From positions 1 through 31,997 of IMG/VR virus record IMGVR_UViG_3300034072_001183: a stretch of 31,997 nucleotides of DNA. One strand, written 5' to 3'. This document shows positions 4,854 through 31,434 of the stretch, one piece after another. The position numbers and the translations under genes are program-made. Position 1 is the stretch's first letter. Each line of letters opens with the position of its first letter. Under the pieces are notes generated by a model. The model had not been told where the DNA came from, made no database searches, and saw nothing but the letters and a program-made list of their open reading frames with translations. The stretch is from a virus.

Positions 4854-5168
4854 TCAGGGCTTTGGATAGACAGAGACCGTGACCCAGCCGGATTCATCGG
4901 GCTGCACCAGGCCGGACACCAGATGGACTACGCCACCCAGCACCAGCTCAGAGCCCTCAACCAGGCCAGGCGTGTGCGCCACAGAAAACGAAGCCGTGAT
5001 GGCCGCCGAGCTGGCCGCCTGGGCACCGAAGGGCTCAACGCCCTCACGACCCAGCAGCACCCCGAAGGGCTCGCCGCCCTCGTAGGTGGCCGCCATGTTT
5101 GCGTGGTGGCGCTCCAATGCGCTTCGCACGCGGGCATGGCGATCAGCGGCTGCTGTCAGCAGGCTCAT
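4854..5168 (-). CDS. Head-tail joining protein (gpFII-like position)
   Basis: I start this gene at the ATG at 5168 (MSLLTAAADRHARV, 104 residues). A longer open frame extends to 5327 but would overlap the DUF2190 gene and adds a Cys/Arg-rich, non-protein-like sequence. The protein has an N-terminal helix, a segment GGEPFGVLLGREGVEPFG, and a beta-rich C-terminus ending WVTVSVYPKP. That shape and length fit small head-tail connector proteins of the gpFII type, which seal the portal and present the docking surface for the tail. The assignment is by length, composition and gene order. Confidence 0.72.
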   Translation of the reverse strand: MSLLTAAADRHARVRSALERHHANMAATYEGGEPFGVLLGREGVEPFGAQAASSAAITASFSVAHTPGLVEGSELVLGGVVHLVSGLVQPDESGWVTVSVYPKP

Positions 5169-17772: not shown

Positions 17773-18072
17773 TCAGGCCACCTCCACCGCTACGTTTTCA
17801 GTAGCTGCCAGCGCTTGACTGGTGGGCGCTTGGGGCTGAATTTGTTGTGCATCCACAATGGCCTGCGCGCCATCCATTTCGGGCCAGATCAGAAACCAGT
17901 CATCGGGCCGCAGCACCTTGCGCGAAACACCCAACTTGCTATCTACAACAGCGCACAGCTCAACAGGGACCCCGCGCTCCATCCAATTACTCAGACGCTG
18001 CGGCGTGATCGCAAGCAGATCGGCCGCGACCTTGAGGCTTATTTCATCAACCGCCTGTTTGAGTGTCTTCAT
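17773..18072 (-). CDS. Cro/YdaS-like helix-turn-helix regulator
   Basis: I start this 99-residue protein at ATG 18072 (MKTLKQAVDEISLKVAAD). A GTG at 18132 would add a poor extension that crosses the promoter. The helix-turn-helix is ISLKVAADLLAITPQRLSNWMERG (~10-33), followed by VELCAVVDSKLGVSRKVLRPDDW, typical of YdaS/Cro proteins in prophage immunity regions. It is divergent from the CI-type gene, with operators between them. The predicted transcription start is at or within a few bases of the ATG, suggesting a leaderless message. The C-terminal ~20 residues (QALAATENVAVEVA) are encoded by the 59-base repeat. Confidence 0.85.
   Translation of the reverse strand: MKTLKQAVDEISLKVAADLLAITPQRLSNWMERGVPVELCAVVDSKLGVSRKVLRPDDWFLIWPEMDGAQAIVDAQQIQPQAPTSQALAATENVAVEVA
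17776..17834 (+). repeat. 59-base repeat, copy at end of the cro-like gene
   Basis: This copy is identical to 17184-17242 except for one C-to-T change. It supplies the C-terminal residues and stop of the cro-like gene on the minus strand. The CI-proximal flank continues with GGGGCTGAATTTG, an extension also typical of the dispersed repeat. Confidence 0.9.
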
Positions 18073-18078
18073 GCCAGC

Positions 18079-18119
18079 ATTTTCACACGCCGTGAATAAA
18101 TGTGTCAACACGCCGTGAA
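18079..18119 (-). promoter_or_regulatory. cro promoter with two repressor operators
   Basis: On the minus strand TTGACA (18103-18108) is followed after 17-18 bases by TGAAAAT (18079-18085), so transcription would start close to the cro ATG at 18072. Two operator-like 15-mers cover these boxes. One is TTCAC-N5-GTGAA at 18082-18096 (perfect). The other is at 18105-18119 (TCAAC-N5-GTGAA on the plus strand), 23 bases away, with identical centres. Either the CI-type repressor or Cro could bind them. The same layout recurs at 19727-19767. Confidence 0.8.
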
Positions 18120-18152
18120 GCAGCGTACTCACATTTTGTTTAAGCTCAATTT

Positions 18153-18785
18153 ATGAACCGCCCAATAGACATTGCTCTGCGCCTCGCTAAAGAAAAAGGC
18201 CTCACGCAGACCGCCTTCGGCACGCTTGTGGGCGCCACCTCTGCCGATGTCTCAAACTGGAAAAAACGCGGAATGCCTGCGGAACGACACCTGGATGTGG
18301 CGCTAGCACTCGGCATCTCGGTGGATTCACTGTTCTCTGGCGCGCCCAACGTGAGCCCAGCGCCAATGGGCACCAAGCGCGTCCCCGTTATCACTAGCAT
18401 CCAGGCCGGGATGTGGGCGGAAATCGTGGATAGCTTTCAACCAGGGGACGCAGGCGACTGGCTTTTGACGGACATCGATCTGTCGGATGGCTCATTCGCC
18501 CTGGACATTCGCGGCAACAGCATGGAGCCCGAATTCAAAGATGGGGATCGGGTCATCATTGACCCAGAGGTCACACCCCAGCCCGGCGACTTCGTCGCCG
18601 CCAAGAACGGAGAACAAGAGGCCACGTTCAAAAAGTACCGCCCACGCGGCATCGACGCACGCGGCAACGTGATTTTCGAGCTCGTACCGCTGAACGACGA
18701 CTACCCCACGCTGCGCTCAGATGTACAGCCCATCAACATCGTTGGCACCATGGTGGAGCACAGGAAATACAGGCGCGCCAGATGA
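18153..18785 (+). CDS. CI/LexA-type phage repressor with S24 peptidase domain
   Basis: This 210-residue repressor maintains lysogeny. The N-terminal helix-turn-helix is LTQTAFGTLVGATSADVSNWKKRG (~17-40). The S24 self-cleavage domain has an Ala-Gly site (SIQAG, ~82-86), catalytic Ser123 in RGNSMEPEF and catalytic Lys at ~160 in EQEATFKKY. RecA-stimulated self-cleavage, and so SOS induction, is expected from the family. The gene is divergent from the cro-like gene, and the operators lie between the two starts. Its own promoter is not obvious to me; a TTTAAG box lies 11 bases before the ATG. Its stop overlaps the HNH gene. Confidence 0.95.
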   Translation: MNRPIDIALRLAKEKGLTQTAFGTLVGATSADVSNWKKRGMPAERHLDVALALGISVDSLFSGAPNVSPAPMGTKRVPVITSIQAGMWAEIVDSFQPGDAGDWLLTDIDLSDGSFALDIRGNSMEPEFKDGDRVIIDPEVTPQPGDFVAAKNGEQEATFKKYRPRGIDARGNVIFELVPLNDDYPTLRSDVQPINIVGTMVEHRKYRRAR

Positions 18786-19060
18786 AAAGGCTTGCAGCCT
18801 TTGTTTTAGCAGCCCTGTTGGCGACCACAGCGCTGGCAAAAGTAGAACGCGATCGAAAGCAAGTTAGGGCATTTCGTGCGGAACACGCCTGCCCAGCAAC
18901 AGGAAATAAACGTGGTGCGTGCCCAGGCTGGCACGTCGACCACATAACGCCACTTTGCGCTGGCGGCAGGGACCACCCCGCAAACATGCAGTGGATCACC
19001 AAACAGGATCACAAACTGAAAACCGCCACGGACATCAGAACCTGCCGCGCCAGCAGGTGA
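18782..19060 (+). CDS. Exported HNH-nuclease-like protein
   Basis: This 92-residue protein has a clear signal peptide (MKRLAAFVLAALLATTALA, cleavage after ALA), leaving ~73 residues. The mature part has an HNH pattern: WHVDHITPLCAGG (Asp53-His54), Asn68 in HPANMQW and His77 in KQDHK. Four cysteines (37, 47, 59, 88) could form disulphides in the periplasm. Its ATG overlaps the repressor stop, so it should be made in the lysogen. Similar small proteins with a leader and HNH motif occur in betaproteobacterial prophages. A periplasmic DNase acting on incoming DNA is possible but unproven. Confidence 0.82.
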   Translation: MKRLAAFVLAALLATTALAKVERDRKQVRAFRAEHACPATGNKRGACPGWHVDHITPLCAGGRDHPANMQWITKQDHKLKTATDIRTCRASR

Positions 19061-19087
19061 TCGAGCCATTCAGAGGGGGAGAACCAT

Positions 19088-19636
19088 ATGGAATTGCTAT
19101 TTATATTACTTGCGATATGCGCCACCTGGTATCTGCTGAGGCGACACGATCGCAAATCGCAACCACTCAATAAATTAGCCATCCCCCCGCCTGGCGAGCC
19201 AATCACCAATCAAAAAGACGCCTGCAACACATTGGCCGCAGCACTCGCAAAAAGCCGCCCCAAAAGCAGTTTTAACAAGGAGTTGGTGACCGAATTCCGC
19301 GCCGAAATGCAGGAGCACGTAGACGAGCTGCGCAGCAACATCGAATTCCTAAAGGAAGAACTGCATAACAAAATTGACTACCGCGGCGAGATTAAAGAAG
19401 ACCTCGCCGATCTTGAAGAAGCAGGCGCCAACGCCCCGCCGGATGAAGAGCTAGAAAAGACCCGCCGCCACCTGGGACACCTTGATCGAGAAATCGAGGA
19501 ACTGAAAGCGAGCCTAGCATCGACCCAAGCGGCGCTGGCAGCCTTTAAACGCGACCGTCGCCAGTTCGTGTCCGACTACCTAGCACACATACTGCAGAAC
19601 AAGCCAACCCCCAATGTCGCCCGCAAAAATCATTGA
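19088..19636 (+). CDS. Membrane-anchored coiled-coil protein
   Basis: This 182-residue protein begins with a single transmembrane helix (MELLFILLAICATWYLL) followed by positive residues (RRHDRKS), so the rest should face the cytoplasm. Residues ~65-170 form long acidic/basic coiled coils (EMQEHVDELRSNIEFLKEEL, then KTRRHLGHLDREIEELKASL). It has a strong ribosome-binding site (GAGGGGGAG) and is the last gene before a terminator, so it is probably co-transcribed with the repressor. Lysogeny genes at this place often protect against other phages, but there is no family match that I recognise. Confidence 0.8.
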   Translation: MELLFILLAICATWYLLRRHDRKSQPLNKLAIPPPGEPITNQKDACNTLAAALAKSRPKSSFNKELVTEFRAEMQEHVDELRSNIEFLKEELHNKIDYRGEIKEDLADLEEAGANAPPDEELEKTRRHLGHLDREIEELKASLASTQAALAAFKRDRRQFVSDYLAHILQNKPTPNVARKNH

Positions 19637-19661
19637 GTAACAAACTCCCCCACTCGAGACG

Positions 19662-19684
19662 GCCCGCCACAAGCGGGCTTTTTT
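19662..19684 (+). terminator. Intrinsic terminator of the repressor operon
   Basis: GCCCGC and GCGGGC form a stem around the loop CACAA, followed by six T. It ends the repressor, HNH and coiled-coil unit. The downstream bases (GGGCTTTTTTACGCCC) recur at two other terminators in the window. Confidence 0.92.
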
Positions 19685-19726
19685 ACGCCCCAGAGCCACG
19701 TACTGCGTGAAATTTCCACAAACACA

Positions 19727-19767
19727 TTCACATATTGTTGACAAGCAATATTCACATGCTGTGTAAT
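19727..19767 (+). promoter_or_regulatory. Rightward promoter with the same operator pair as cro
   Basis: TTGACA (19738-19743) and TGTAAT (19762-19767), 18 bases apart, form a strong sigma-70 promoter. TTCAC-N5-GTTGA (19727-19741) covers the -35 box and TTCAC-N5-GTGTA (19751-19765) covers the -10 box. This is the same arrangement as the cro promoter on the other strand. A third TTCAC half-site is at 19767-19771. The promoter points into the region before the rightward early genes. Confidence 0.82.
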
Positions 19768-19771
19768 TCAC

Positions 19772-20454
19772 CTAACGCAGCCCAAAAGCCGCGCCAGGTG
19801 ACCAGATCGCTGCACCGACAGCCCCTTAAAACAGCTAAGCCCGCGGATCAACAGTCAAGTAACGCTTGACGGTTGGCAGCCCTTCAATGGGTAGTGGGCG
19901 CGGCCCGGTGGCGAGAGAACCGGGTGAGGCGGCACAGCCAACACAAGCAACGTGCCACCGCTGGCCACAGCCGCGCGCAACCGAGTGCGCCGCTCCCTGC
20001 CCAGCGCTCCACGCCAAAACGTGGGCCGCATGCCGCCAGGTGACAGATGGCGGTCAGAAATGCGGGCAGATGCACCCGGCACAACGCCGGTGCCATCATC
20101 GAATCGGCGTCGTTGAAGGAAACGATAGGTACAAGTGGATCGAGTGGGCGAGCAAACATAACCGGCGTGGCAACCGGAAGCCGCAACCGCCTGCCGACAG
20201 AAGCCCGAACGGGGACGCGCCCCAGCTGGAATCAAGCCCAGCCCGATTCGATGATGGCGAATGCGCAGCAGATGCGCGGCATGTTGGAAGCGAACCGGCG
20301 CCGACCGGGTCCTAGGCCGTACCCCACCAGGGGCCAGACGGCTGCTATGAAAAAACCAGTGCGGCCCTGACCGCCATCACCCCTTACGGGCGAAAGCACT
20401 CCCTAACTTTGGACGGTGCGGGAATCCCCAGCAAGTAGCCCACCCATCACAGCC
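19772..20454 (+). other. Gene-poor transcribed region between promoter and terminator
   Basis: About 680 bases lie between the operator-controlled promoter and the terminator at 20455. Several inverted repeats are visible: AACAGTCAAG/CTTGACGGTT (19850-19874, one mismatch), CCCGGT/ACCGGG (19904-19924) and GCACCCGGC/GCCGGTGC (20072-20093, one bulge). Open frames exist on both strands but none is convincing; the best is listed separately. It could be a structured leader or a regulatory RNA. Confidence 0.5.
20047..20370 (+). CDS. Possible small protein in the gene-poor region (doubtful)
   Basis: A 107-residue frame starts at ATG 20047, with AGGTGA five bases upstream. The C-terminal part (DSMMANAQQMRGMLEANRRR, then PGPRPYPTRG) looks somewhat protein-like and the third codon positions are fairly GC rich. 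The first half is Ser/Thr/Gly-rich and less convincing. An overlapping rightward frame (19866-20315) also contains a natural-looking stretch (NDRYKWIEWASKHNRRG), which could mean a frameshifted or decayed gene. I keep it only as a possibility. Confidence 0.3.
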   Translation: MAVRNAGRCTRHNAGAIIESASLKETIGTSGSSGRANITGVATGSRNRLPTEARTGTRPSWNQAQPDSMMANAQQMRGMLEANRRRPGPRPYPTRGQTAAMKKPVRP

Positions 20455-20479
20455 AAGCCCACCGCGAGTGGGCTTTTTT
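20455..20479 (+). terminator. Intrinsic terminator before the early gene run
   Basis: AAGCCCAC and GTGGGCTT pair around the loop CGCGA and are followed by a T-run. It lies 21 bases before the first gene of the rightward run, so genes beyond it need read-through, antitermination or their own promoter. Confidence 0.9.
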
Positions 20480-20500
20480 ACGCCCACGCAAAGGAGAGCC

Positions 20501-25598: not shown

Positions 25599-26255
25599 AT
25601 GACTGGATTGCAAGAAGCAGAGTTCCTGCGTGACGTTGAAAAGCATGAAATGCTGGTACTGCGCGATGACGGCATCTATCGCCACATCCGCTTCAAGGAG
25701 CCCGGAACGATGTGCATGCACTTCGACCTGATCACTTGGCCGGGCTATCTCTGCTACTGCGGAGACATGGGCACCTATGTGTTCACACGCCTGGCCGATA
25801 TGTTTGAGTTCTTCCGCACTGATCGGCGGGACGACGCAAAGCTGTACATCAACCGGGGCTACTGGTCTGAAAAGCTGGTGGCCGTTGATGGCAATCGACG
25901 CGCTGCGGCTGCCACAGAGTTCAGTTGGGAAATGTACTCACGGGTAGTGAAACAGACGCTGGTTGATTGGATGCGCCACAGGTGCACCAATGCGCAGGAG
26001 CGCCGCGATCTGCGTGAACAGGTTGAGGATGAACTTCTTGGTGGGGGAATCTTTGGTGAACGGCCCGAAACCACTCACGACGCAATACGTATGGCGAGTG
26101 AGTTTGAGGCTTCTGTGGGGGGCAAGAAATGCCACTTCCAAGACTTCTGGGATCACCGATTGGAGGACTACACGCACAGATTCACTTGGTGCTGTTTTGC
26201 TCTTGCCTGGGGCATCAAGCAGTACGACAAGGCGAAAGCAGCAGTCCCCGCCTGA
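25599..26255 (+). CDS. Hypothetical phage protein in a terminator-flanked cassette
   Basis: This 218-residue protein starts MTGLQEAEFLRDVEKHEML. It is rich in aromatic and charged residues (RHIRFKEPGTMCMHFDLITW, then GYLCYCGDMGTYVFTRLADM). Similar proteins occur in phages of several proteobacteria, but I know no function. The many Cys and His residues could bind metal or occur in an enzyme core. It is flanked by terminators on both sides, and its codon usage is less GC-rich than its neighbours, which suggests a separately acquired single-gene insert. A GGAG site lies before the ATG. Confidence 0.8.
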   Translation: MTGLQEAEFLRDVEKHEMLVLRDDGIYRHIRFKEPGTMCMHFDLITWPGYLCYCGDMGTYVFTRLADMFEFFRTDRRDDAKLYINRGYWSEKLVAVDGNRRAAAATEFSWEMYSRVVKQTLVDWMRHRCTNAQERRDLREQVEDELLGGGIFGERPETTHDAIRMASEFEASVGGKKCHFQDFWDHRLEDYTHRFTWCCFALAWGIKQYDKAKAAVPA

Positions 26256-29629: not shown

Positions 29630-29901
29630 ACACGCCCGCCCCCATCATCACGCTCAAGCCCCTGTACCTTGACCGCGAGAGCGCAGCCGCCTATCTGTCC
29701 ATCTCATCATCGCTGCTGGAAAAGCTGGTGGCTAAGGGTGCCGCGCCCAAACCCCGCAAGCTGTCTGCCAACCGCTGCGCCTGGCTGGTGGAAGACTTGG
29801 AGCAATGGGGCAGAGAGCGCCCCGTGTCTGACCTGCTGCCCGCCCGTGGCTCGGGCTACGGCCGCGCTGGTGCGCCAACAGACGCCAGCGAAGCCAGATG
29901 A
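29626..29901 (+). CDS. AlpA/excisionase-like DNA-binding protein
   Basis: This 91-residue protein starts MNTPAPIITLKPLYLDRESA. The helix-turn-helix region LDRESAAAYLSISSSLLEKLVAKGAAPKP, then RCAWLVEDLEQWGRER, is that of AlpA/MerR-type excisionases ('..R.EAA.YL.IS...L..L...G..P...........L..W'). The last 46 bases overlap the convergent integrase gene, the usual arrangement of a directionality factor and integrase. It probably steers the integrase towards excision. Confidence 0.82.
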   Translation: MNTPAPIITLKPLYLDRESAAAYLSISSSLLEKLVAKGAAPKPRKLSANRCAWLVEDLEQWGRERPVSDLLPARGSGYGRAGAPTDASEAR

Positions 29902-31154
29902 GCATCCAGGCGCTGCAACCACTCCACGCGCTCAGCGTCATAGGTGTGCACGTTGTAAGTGGCCTCTATTGCCGGTGGCATGTGCCCCACCACCGCCTCG
30001 GCAATCTCGCGCGGGCAGCCCAGCGCTGCCAGCAGCGTGCGGCCCGTGCGGCGCAGGTTGTGGGGCGTCCAATTCGTCACCGGCATTTCCGTGGCCTGGC
30101 TGCCCCGGCGCTTTGCCTTCGGGCTGTAGGGCTGCAGGTCGTAGATGTAGGTGCTGAATGCATGCTGGGTGTACTGCTCGCCCTTGCCGTTTTCAAACAA
30201 AAAGCCCGACCGCCCCACCGAAGCCAGGCGGCGCTCCACCACCAGGCGCGCCTGCCCAAACAGCGGCACGCGCAAATCAACAGCCTCGGCAAACCTCGCA
30301 TTCTTGGTTAGCTCTTTGGGCACCGTCCACCACAGCACGGCGCCCTCTTTCGCCACATGCTCAGGCCGCATGGCGAAAATCTCACTCCCCCGCGCACACG
30401 TCCACAGGTACATCACCACGGCATCGCGCCCGATCTGGTGCATGTTGCCCAGCCAGCCCAGCAGCGCCGCAATCTCTTCATTGCGCAGCGCGCGCCTGCT
30501 CTGGCCTACGTGCTTACCCCCCATCACCTTTCCCTTGCTTTTCAGCTTGCCCTGCATGAGCTGGCGCCACCAGTTCGGTGTGTTGCCATCCAGCCGCCCG
30601 GCATCCAGCGCAAACTCCCACGCAGACCCGAGCATCGAACGCAGCTTTGCAGTGGCCATGGGCGTGGCCTTGCGGGCGTCCAGCACATCAAAGCACTGCG
30701 CCCGCGTCACCTTGTTGGCATCCGTGGCGGCCAGCTCAGGCTCAGCCGCCAGCATGCGCTCCAGGGCTCTGCGCGCAGCCGTGGCGCCATCCTTCGCCCG
30801 GTTCACCTCCAGCTGCCCCTTGATGTAGTCGCCCACCAGCAGCGCCACGGTGTAGCTTTTGGGGGGCGCAGGTGTAGCTTTTGCCGCAGCCCGCAGCGCC
30901 TTTTTACGCGCCACCGGGTCAACACCTTGCGCCTTCAAGCCGCGAAGCTCGTGCCACTTTGCAATGGCATCCGCCAGCGTCAACTCAGGCCACCGGCCAA
31001 TCGCAACCTGCTTCAAGCGCTCATCCGGCCCCCGGTAGCGATACGTCCACGTCTTGCCCGACTTGGTGGCCAGCAAGCGCAGCCCCGGGCAATCTGCCAC
31101 CGCGAGAGCAGCCCCAGGCGGCAGAGTTTTCGCAGCCCTCGAATCAAAAACCAT
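29856..31154 (-). CDS. Tyrosine-recombinase integrase of the prophage
   Basis: I start this 432-residue protein at ATG 31154 (MVFDSRAAKTLPPGAALAVA), with GGTGGGGAG just upstream; the frame is open to 31211. The N-terminal arm-binding domain (WTYRYRGPDERLKQVAIGRW) is of the DUF4102/P4 type. A core-binding SAM-like domain (~110-210) follows, then the catalytic domain with Arg in TCARGSEIFAMRP, HNLRR (His-x-x-Arg), GH in VVGHMPP and the Tyr nucleophile in EATYNVHTY. It faces away from the tRNA. Two copies of the 13-mer CAAAAGCTACACC lie within its coding sequence and one upstream of its start. Confidence 0.95.
   Translation of the reverse strand: MVFDSRAAKTLPPGAALAVADCPGLRLLATKSGKTWTYRYRGPDERLKQVAIGRWPELTLADAIAKWHELRGLKAQGVDPVARKKALRAAAKATPAPPKSYTVALLVGDYIKGQLEVNRAKDGATAARRALERMLAAEPELAATDANKVTRAQCFDVLDARKATPMATAKLRSMLGSAWEFALDAGRLDGNTPNWWRQLMQGKLKSKGKVMGGKHVGQSRRALRNEEIAALLGWLGNMHQIGRDAVVMYLWTCARGSEIFAMRPEHVAKEGAVLWWTVPKELTKNARFAEAVDLRVPLFGQARLVVERRLASVGRSGFLFENGKGEQYTQHAFSTYIYDLQPYSPKAKRRGSQATEMPVTNWTPHNLRRTGRTLLAALGCPREIAEAVVGHMPPAIEATYNVHTYDAERVEWLQRLDAHLASLASVGAPARP
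30849..30883 (-). repeat. Two 13-mer repeats within the integrase gene
   Basis: CAAAAGCTACACC occurs on the minus strand at 30849-30861 and 30871-30883, 22 bases apart and in different reading frames (KSYT and KATP). The same 13-mer occurs on the plus strand at 31209-31221, beside the integrase start. Confidence 0.8.
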
Positions 31155-31243
31155 ATACTCCCCACCTGTAAGTCGAACCAAATGCAGGGCCGGTGTAGCT
31201 TCCCAAATCAAAAGCTACACCAAAACTACACTTGGAGTATATG
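31152..31243. promoter_or_regulatory. Nested inverted repeats at the integrase start; likely att/arm-site region
   Basis: The outer pair is CATATACTCC (31152-31161, containing the integrase start codon) and GGAGTATATG (31234-31243), a perfect 10-bp inverted repeat. The inner pair is GGTGTAGCTT (31192-31201) and AAGCTACACC (31212-31221), a perfect 10-bp dyad with a 10-base centre. The left inner arm continues as AGCTTCCCAA, the same 10 bases as the anticodon loop region of the adjacent tRNA. These are candidate integrase/excisionase binding sites. Confidence 0.65.
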
Positions 31244-31360
31244 CAGGCATGGGTTTAGATAGGCAAGCGTACAAAACGCATCAGCCATAGAGAGCCAGAA
31301 ACAGCATTACAATCAACAACTTACAGAGCCAACCCGTTGCAAATCAATGGGTTAGGAAAT

Positions 31361-31434
31361 GCGGGTGTAGTTCAATGGTAGAACGGCAGCTTCCCAAGCT
31401 TCATACGAGGGTTCGATTCCCTTCACCCGCTCCA
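31361..31434 (+). tRNA. tRNA-Gly (anticodon CCC)
   Basis: A complete cloverleaf: the acceptor stem GCGGGTG pairs with CACCCGC, the D arm is GTTC...GAAC, the anticodon loop TTCCCAA has CCC at 31393-31395, the T arm is GAGGGTTCGATTCCCTT (stem and loop), and there is an encoded CCA end. It closely follows the known bacterial tRNA-Gly(CCC) pattern. It lies between two integrase genes and is the likely attachment target of at least the right-hand element. Confidence 0.95.

Follow-up and report, generated by a model that had tools for sequence, protein, structure and literature searches.

In the phage lambda record, the order is cro, the right operator (OR) sites OR1-3, cI, rexA, rexB, the left operator (OL) sites OL3-1 and N, with spacings of 23 and 24 bp in OR and 24 and 20 bp in OL, and a terminator-like hairpin with a T-rich tail is present between rexB and OL3. 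Here, we describe a corresponding region in the virus record IMGVR_UViG_3300034072_001183 (IMG/VR), the whole 31,997-nucleotide stretch of which (positions 1 to 31,997) is referred to as the window. Judged from its operators, gene order and conservation, this region is very probably the immunity region of a lambda-type temperate phage. The window resembles lambda in gene order and directions, in having three OR sites 23-24 bp apart, in the location of OL at the left promoter (PL) beyond the cI operon, and in the presence of cargo genes between cI and OL and of a terminator-like hairpin before OL. It differs in the operator sequence and the helix-turn-helix (HTH) domain, in the number of OL sites (two clear sites, compared with three in lambda), in the predicted leaderless cro, in its cargo (an HNH nuclease and a coiled-coil protein rather than RexAB), and in the distance between OR and OL, which is 1.65 kb in the window and 2.4 kb in lambda.

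Three other described systems are also similar. In CP-933P of E. coli O157:H7, PaaR2 (the CI analogue) and YdaS (the Cro analogue) each repress the promoter PL933P ~100-fold (PMC8630535). CP-933P shares with the window the combination of a YdaS-type Cro with a CI analogue, the presence of cargo in the repressor operon (paaA2-parE2), a PL promoter with similar operators, and a repressor mRNA that is leaderless, whereas its repressor is a different one and its operators are four inverted repeats with the consensus GTTTAGTAA (PMC8630535). Phage N15, like the window, contains three repressor-cro operators together with a pair of OL sites at a promoter some distance away, and leaderless cI and cro mRNAs, which are predicted in the window, have been demonstrated in PY54; both differ from the window in being telomere phages, the prophages of which are linear plasmids (PMC4488713). 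In lambdoid phages, the genes between the repressor gene and PL are presumed to be under the control of the repressor promoter, and this slot is a hotspot of mosaic diversity (PMC8585504). The HNH and coiled-coil genes of the window are located in the same position as the BstA and RexAB cargo, but no sequence relation to BstA or Rex was detected.

Promoters and operators

The right promoter (PR; 18079-18108, minus strand) consists of a -35 box TTGACA (18108-18103), an 18-nt spacer, and a -10 box GAAAAT (18084-18079). It gave 10/12 matches in the promoter scan, has a TG before the -10 box, and shares its geometry with the promoters of relatives. PL (19738-19767, plus strand), at the start of the rightward early unit, has the boxes TTGACA (19738-19743) and TGTAAT (19762-19767), also separated by 18 nt; in the aligned loci, the -35 box is TTGACA in 5/5 and the -10 box is TGTAAT or TGAAAT. 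The minus-strand promoter region reads TTCACGGCGTGTTGACA (18119-18103), CATTTA (6 nt) and TTCACGGCGTGTGAA (18096-18082), and the plus-strand one reads TTCACATATTGTTGACA (19727-19743), AGCAATA (7 nt) and TTCACATGCTGTGTAA (19751-19766). The pattern TTCAC-N5-GTKNAMA occurs three times in the window, compared with 0.03 expected from shuffles. This count and a re-reading of the sequence confirmed the shared layout that a first-pass annotation had assigned to the two promoters, and the coordinates agree with its placement of one operator over the -35 box and one over the -10 box of each, i.e. OR2 (18105-18119) and OR1 (18082-18096) at PR and the two OL sites (19727-19741 and 19751-19765) at PL. OR1, which overlaps the -10 box, is the perfect TTCAC-N5-GTGAA dyad reported there for the cro promoter (TTCAC-ACGCC-GTGAA). 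The same annotation described tandem operators at cro; both of its sites stand, but the description was incomplete, having overlooked a third site, OR3 (18128-18142; CTCAC-ATTTT-GTTTA), from which the cI start is separated by 10 nt. The three OR sites start at 18082, 18105, and 18128, i.e. in 23-bp steps, and form an OR1-OR2-OR3 array. The two PL operators are spaced by 24 bp, and their centres are not the same as those of the cro sites. Beyond these two clear sites, the OL side contains just half-sites (GTGAAATTTCCAC; 19707-19719), the spacing of which varies among relatives; the aligned loci have GTGAA ... TTCAC at this place, and the window has TCCAC. These half-sites are perhaps a degenerate third OL site.

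A site model trained solely on OR sites taken from four other phages detected OL as readily as OR. In the 32-kb window, the five best-scoring sites started at 19751 (18.0), 19727 (16.7), 18082 (16.6), 18128 (13.7), and 18105 (13.4). In simulated first-order Markov windows, the best score averaged 11.1 and the highest of 200 was 17.5, and a lone site could therefore arise by chance; five in-register sites around one repressor gene by chance are not credible. Graded affinity among the operators is plausible from a separate set of model scores (19.0 to 13.9). The sixth-best operator-like site of the window (25937-25951; 10.8) lies within a coding region and has a chance-level score.

Conservation in related phages

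In 14 records, including the window, the repressor gene is flanked at both places by matching sites; the paired sites that the first-pass annotation had proposed to seek in related phages are thus present in 13 further records. Homology to the repressor was the sole criterion by which seven of these (L043, L049, L053, L056, L074, L060, and L008) were retrieved; all seven have sites at both places, whereas L109, L111/L113, L116, L118, L123, and L124 were fetched by a pattern for one of the two promoters. Just four contigs in the viral collection match the TTCAC-layout pattern, and both promoters are present in all four; in the 401 genomes of the family of Comamonas testosteroni JL40, the exact promoter pattern was found in none. 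L116 and L118 encode the repressor on the opposite strand and show a mirror-image layout. The OR trio is spaced by 23 bp in L043, L049, L109, and L113 and by 23-24 bp in L053 and L074; in L043 and L049, the OR trio and the OL pair occupy the same positions, and the operator centres differ. Downstream of cro, L109 has one more strong operator-like site (4971-4985; score 16.3).

The half-site type (TTCAC, TACAC, or TAAAC) is broadly, not exactly, alike at both places and tracks the HTH type of CI. Repressors with the helix SADVSNW or a near variant are accompanied at both places mainly by TTCAC half-sites, those with TNW by TACAC or TAAAC, and those with HNW mostly by TAAAC. Since operators and repressor HTH change together, they could help to predict which prophages share immunity.

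Repressor, Cro and predicted leaderless starts

The cI gene (18153-18785, plus strand) encodes a 210-aa repressor with an HTH and an S24 autoprotease domain, matching Pfam S24 over the full profile (8.6e-20), PHROG 4 (3.5e-39), and, just below the cut-off, CI HTH (3.2e-4). The closest named relatives of this repressor come from genera that we take to belong to the Burkholderiales. A 63-residue HTH query yielded two weak streptococcal matches in the phage collection and none among plasmids. The CI relatives (L001-L059 and L060-L075) have the S24 domain in common and many unrelated HTH domains, and the repressors are therefore mosaic. Opposite cI lies a cro-like gene (17773-18072, minus strand, from the ATG at 18072) for a 99-aa protein with a YdaS/Cro-type HTH, which matches PHROG 35 (transcriptional repressor, E=1.4e-10) and, below the cut-off, Pfam YdaS (3.4e-5). 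The recognition helices of both Cro and CI contain the motif SNWxxRGxP, and the helices of Cro resemble those of CI in each repressor group.

The cro ATG is located 6 nt past the -10 box of PR in the window and 6-9 nt past it in the loci with a recognised promoter. For the TTCAC-type loci as well as L053, L056, and L074, the distance from OR3 to the cI ATG is 10-12 nt, with the in-frame ATG of MHSRPID (L043) or MSRRPID (L109) taken as the start in these two. Because the start codons of cro (18072) and cI (18153) are so near the predicted -10 boxes, both mRNAs are predicted to be leaderless.

Proposed control by a common repressor and alternative explanations

The window combines the features of a lambda-type region: divergent cI and cro genes with three operators between them, a repressor with HTH and S24 domains, cII-type and replication genes behind cro, a terminator before PL, and a PL promoter that diverges from PR beyond the cI operon and carries the same operators. 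The two promoters flank the repressor, HNH, and coiled-coil genes (18153-19636), in agreement with the first-pass annotation. There is strong support, from the matching operators, their presence in the 13 further records, and the gene content, for the proposal made there that one repressor serves both the leftward cro/cII/replication/late unit and the rightward early unit. The sites, their spacing, the gene order, the terminator, and the conservation are directly observed; we infer binding, cooperativity, looping, site order, and expression. CI dimers on OR1 and OR2 would shut PR (cro, cII, the replication genes and, further on, the late genes), and CI dimers on both OL sites would shut PL and the rightward early genes. 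OR3, which is next to cI, would be expected to mediate autoregulation of the repressor-maintenance promoter (PRM), and Cro, with its CI-like recognition helix, would be expected to act on the same operators in lytic growth.

Several points weigh against this assignment. OL has two clear sites, compared with three in lambda, although three OL sites are not required for a lambda-type region because N15 has two. The second and third OR sites of L056 are weak, and L109, L056, and L074 share the half-site type only loosely between the two places (e.g. mixed TACAC/TAAAC). The relatives fetched by the promoter pattern are independent evidence for the second promoter alone, and the evidence as a whole comes from sequence.

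Among the alternatives, the one that survives best assigns the OR sites to CI and the rightward sites mainly to Cro or to a different HTH protein of the phage; the motif would then be shared because the HTH domains are related and not because a single repressor uses both groups of sites. The helix motif common to Cro and CI suggests that either could bind, and the centres of the rightward sites are unlike those at cro. However, PL of CP-933P is repressed by the CI-like and the Cro-like protein alike, and the model derived from OR sites finds both operator groups equally well; we consider this alternative highly unlikely. Even less probable is a degenerate prophage remnant with operators that are no longer used: the record is a virus contig that may be incomplete, but the cI, cro, replication, terminase, portal, tape-measure, and integrase frames are open and the operators are intact. 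A chance look-alike made of TTGACA, -10 boxes, and low-complexity half-sites is hardly conceivable, since, although the TTGACA and TGTAAT parts of the sites are also promoter consensus, the TTCAC half-sites fall outside both boxes, the pattern was counted three times with 0.03 expected, and the sites are kept in 13 relatives despite diverging operator centres.

The region is thus best regarded as a well-conserved yet ordinary prophage control region of phages of Burkholderiales-type bacteria. It leaves the knowledge of phage switches unchanged but provides a clean identification of OR and OL, made from sequence alone, in this phage group.

Cargo genes between cI and PL

Two genes occupy the rexAB position, and their expression would be expected in the lysogen. 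The first, which takes the place of rex in the cI operon (18782-19060, plus strand), encodes a 92-aa HNH nuclease (Pfam HNH, 5.8e-5; PHROG 333, 1.6e-8) with a signal-peptide-like N-terminus, as judged by eye (MKRLAAFVLAALLATTALA). The second (19088-19636, plus strand) encodes a 182-aa coiled-coil protein, the N-terminus of which carries a hydrophobic segment, probably a membrane anchor. Its matches were weak and of the coiled-coil type alone; PADLOC matches to PbeC and DndD were taken as coiled-coil background, and the protein as a query found no relatives in viral_contigs. The matches of the two proteins included no Rex or BstA family. An intrinsic terminator of the cI operon follows (19661-19685, plus strand), and a hairpin with a T-run is present right before OL in 9/12 loci checked. 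This terminator would stop the cI-operon transcript from entering PL. The first-pass annotation had regarded it as a departure from lambda, which does not hold, since lambda has its own terminator-like hairpin in the stretch from rexB to OL3.

Nearly all relatives have a different interval between cI and OL; its length ranges from 7 bp (L056) to ~3 kb, and it often codes for secreted, lipoprotein, or membrane-anchored proteins (signal sequences identified by eye). L043 carries a related HNH gene in the same slot, and other relatives carry genes for lipoproteins or other membrane proteins. That the interval accommodates envelope-directed lysogeny proteins in this phage group, with the secreted HNH nuclease acting as a periplasmic exclusion factor against incoming phage DNA, is a tentative and rather unlikely suggestion.

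Gene surroundings and the PL leader

Leftward past cro, the window encodes a CII-type protein (Phage_CP76 CII, 3.9e-31), a primosomal protein, a DnaC-like loader, and terminase, portal, head, and tape-measure proteins. The rightward genes include those for DUF2303 and a methyltransferase, and an integrase gene and a tRNA-Gly gene are located at the right end. This content fits transcription of replication and late genes from PR and of early genes from PL.

The ~730 bases past PL (19768-20500) contain no clear gene and gave no match in the phage collection. Within this leader, an element of roughly 65 nt (20386-20447), located before a terminator, recurs in L002, L057, L130, L132, L138, and L142, with 1-nt length changes among the copies. 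Its interpretation as a conserved RNA was dropped, as its folding was no better than that of shuffles and some parts of it can be translated into short protein tails, in differing frames. In Rfam, the window gave tRNA alone; the PL leader gave two matches, both below threshold, and 20386-20447 gave no match. At the right end (29856-31434), the minus-strand integrase gene adjoins the tRNA-Gly gene (31361-31434), which is a likely attachment site.
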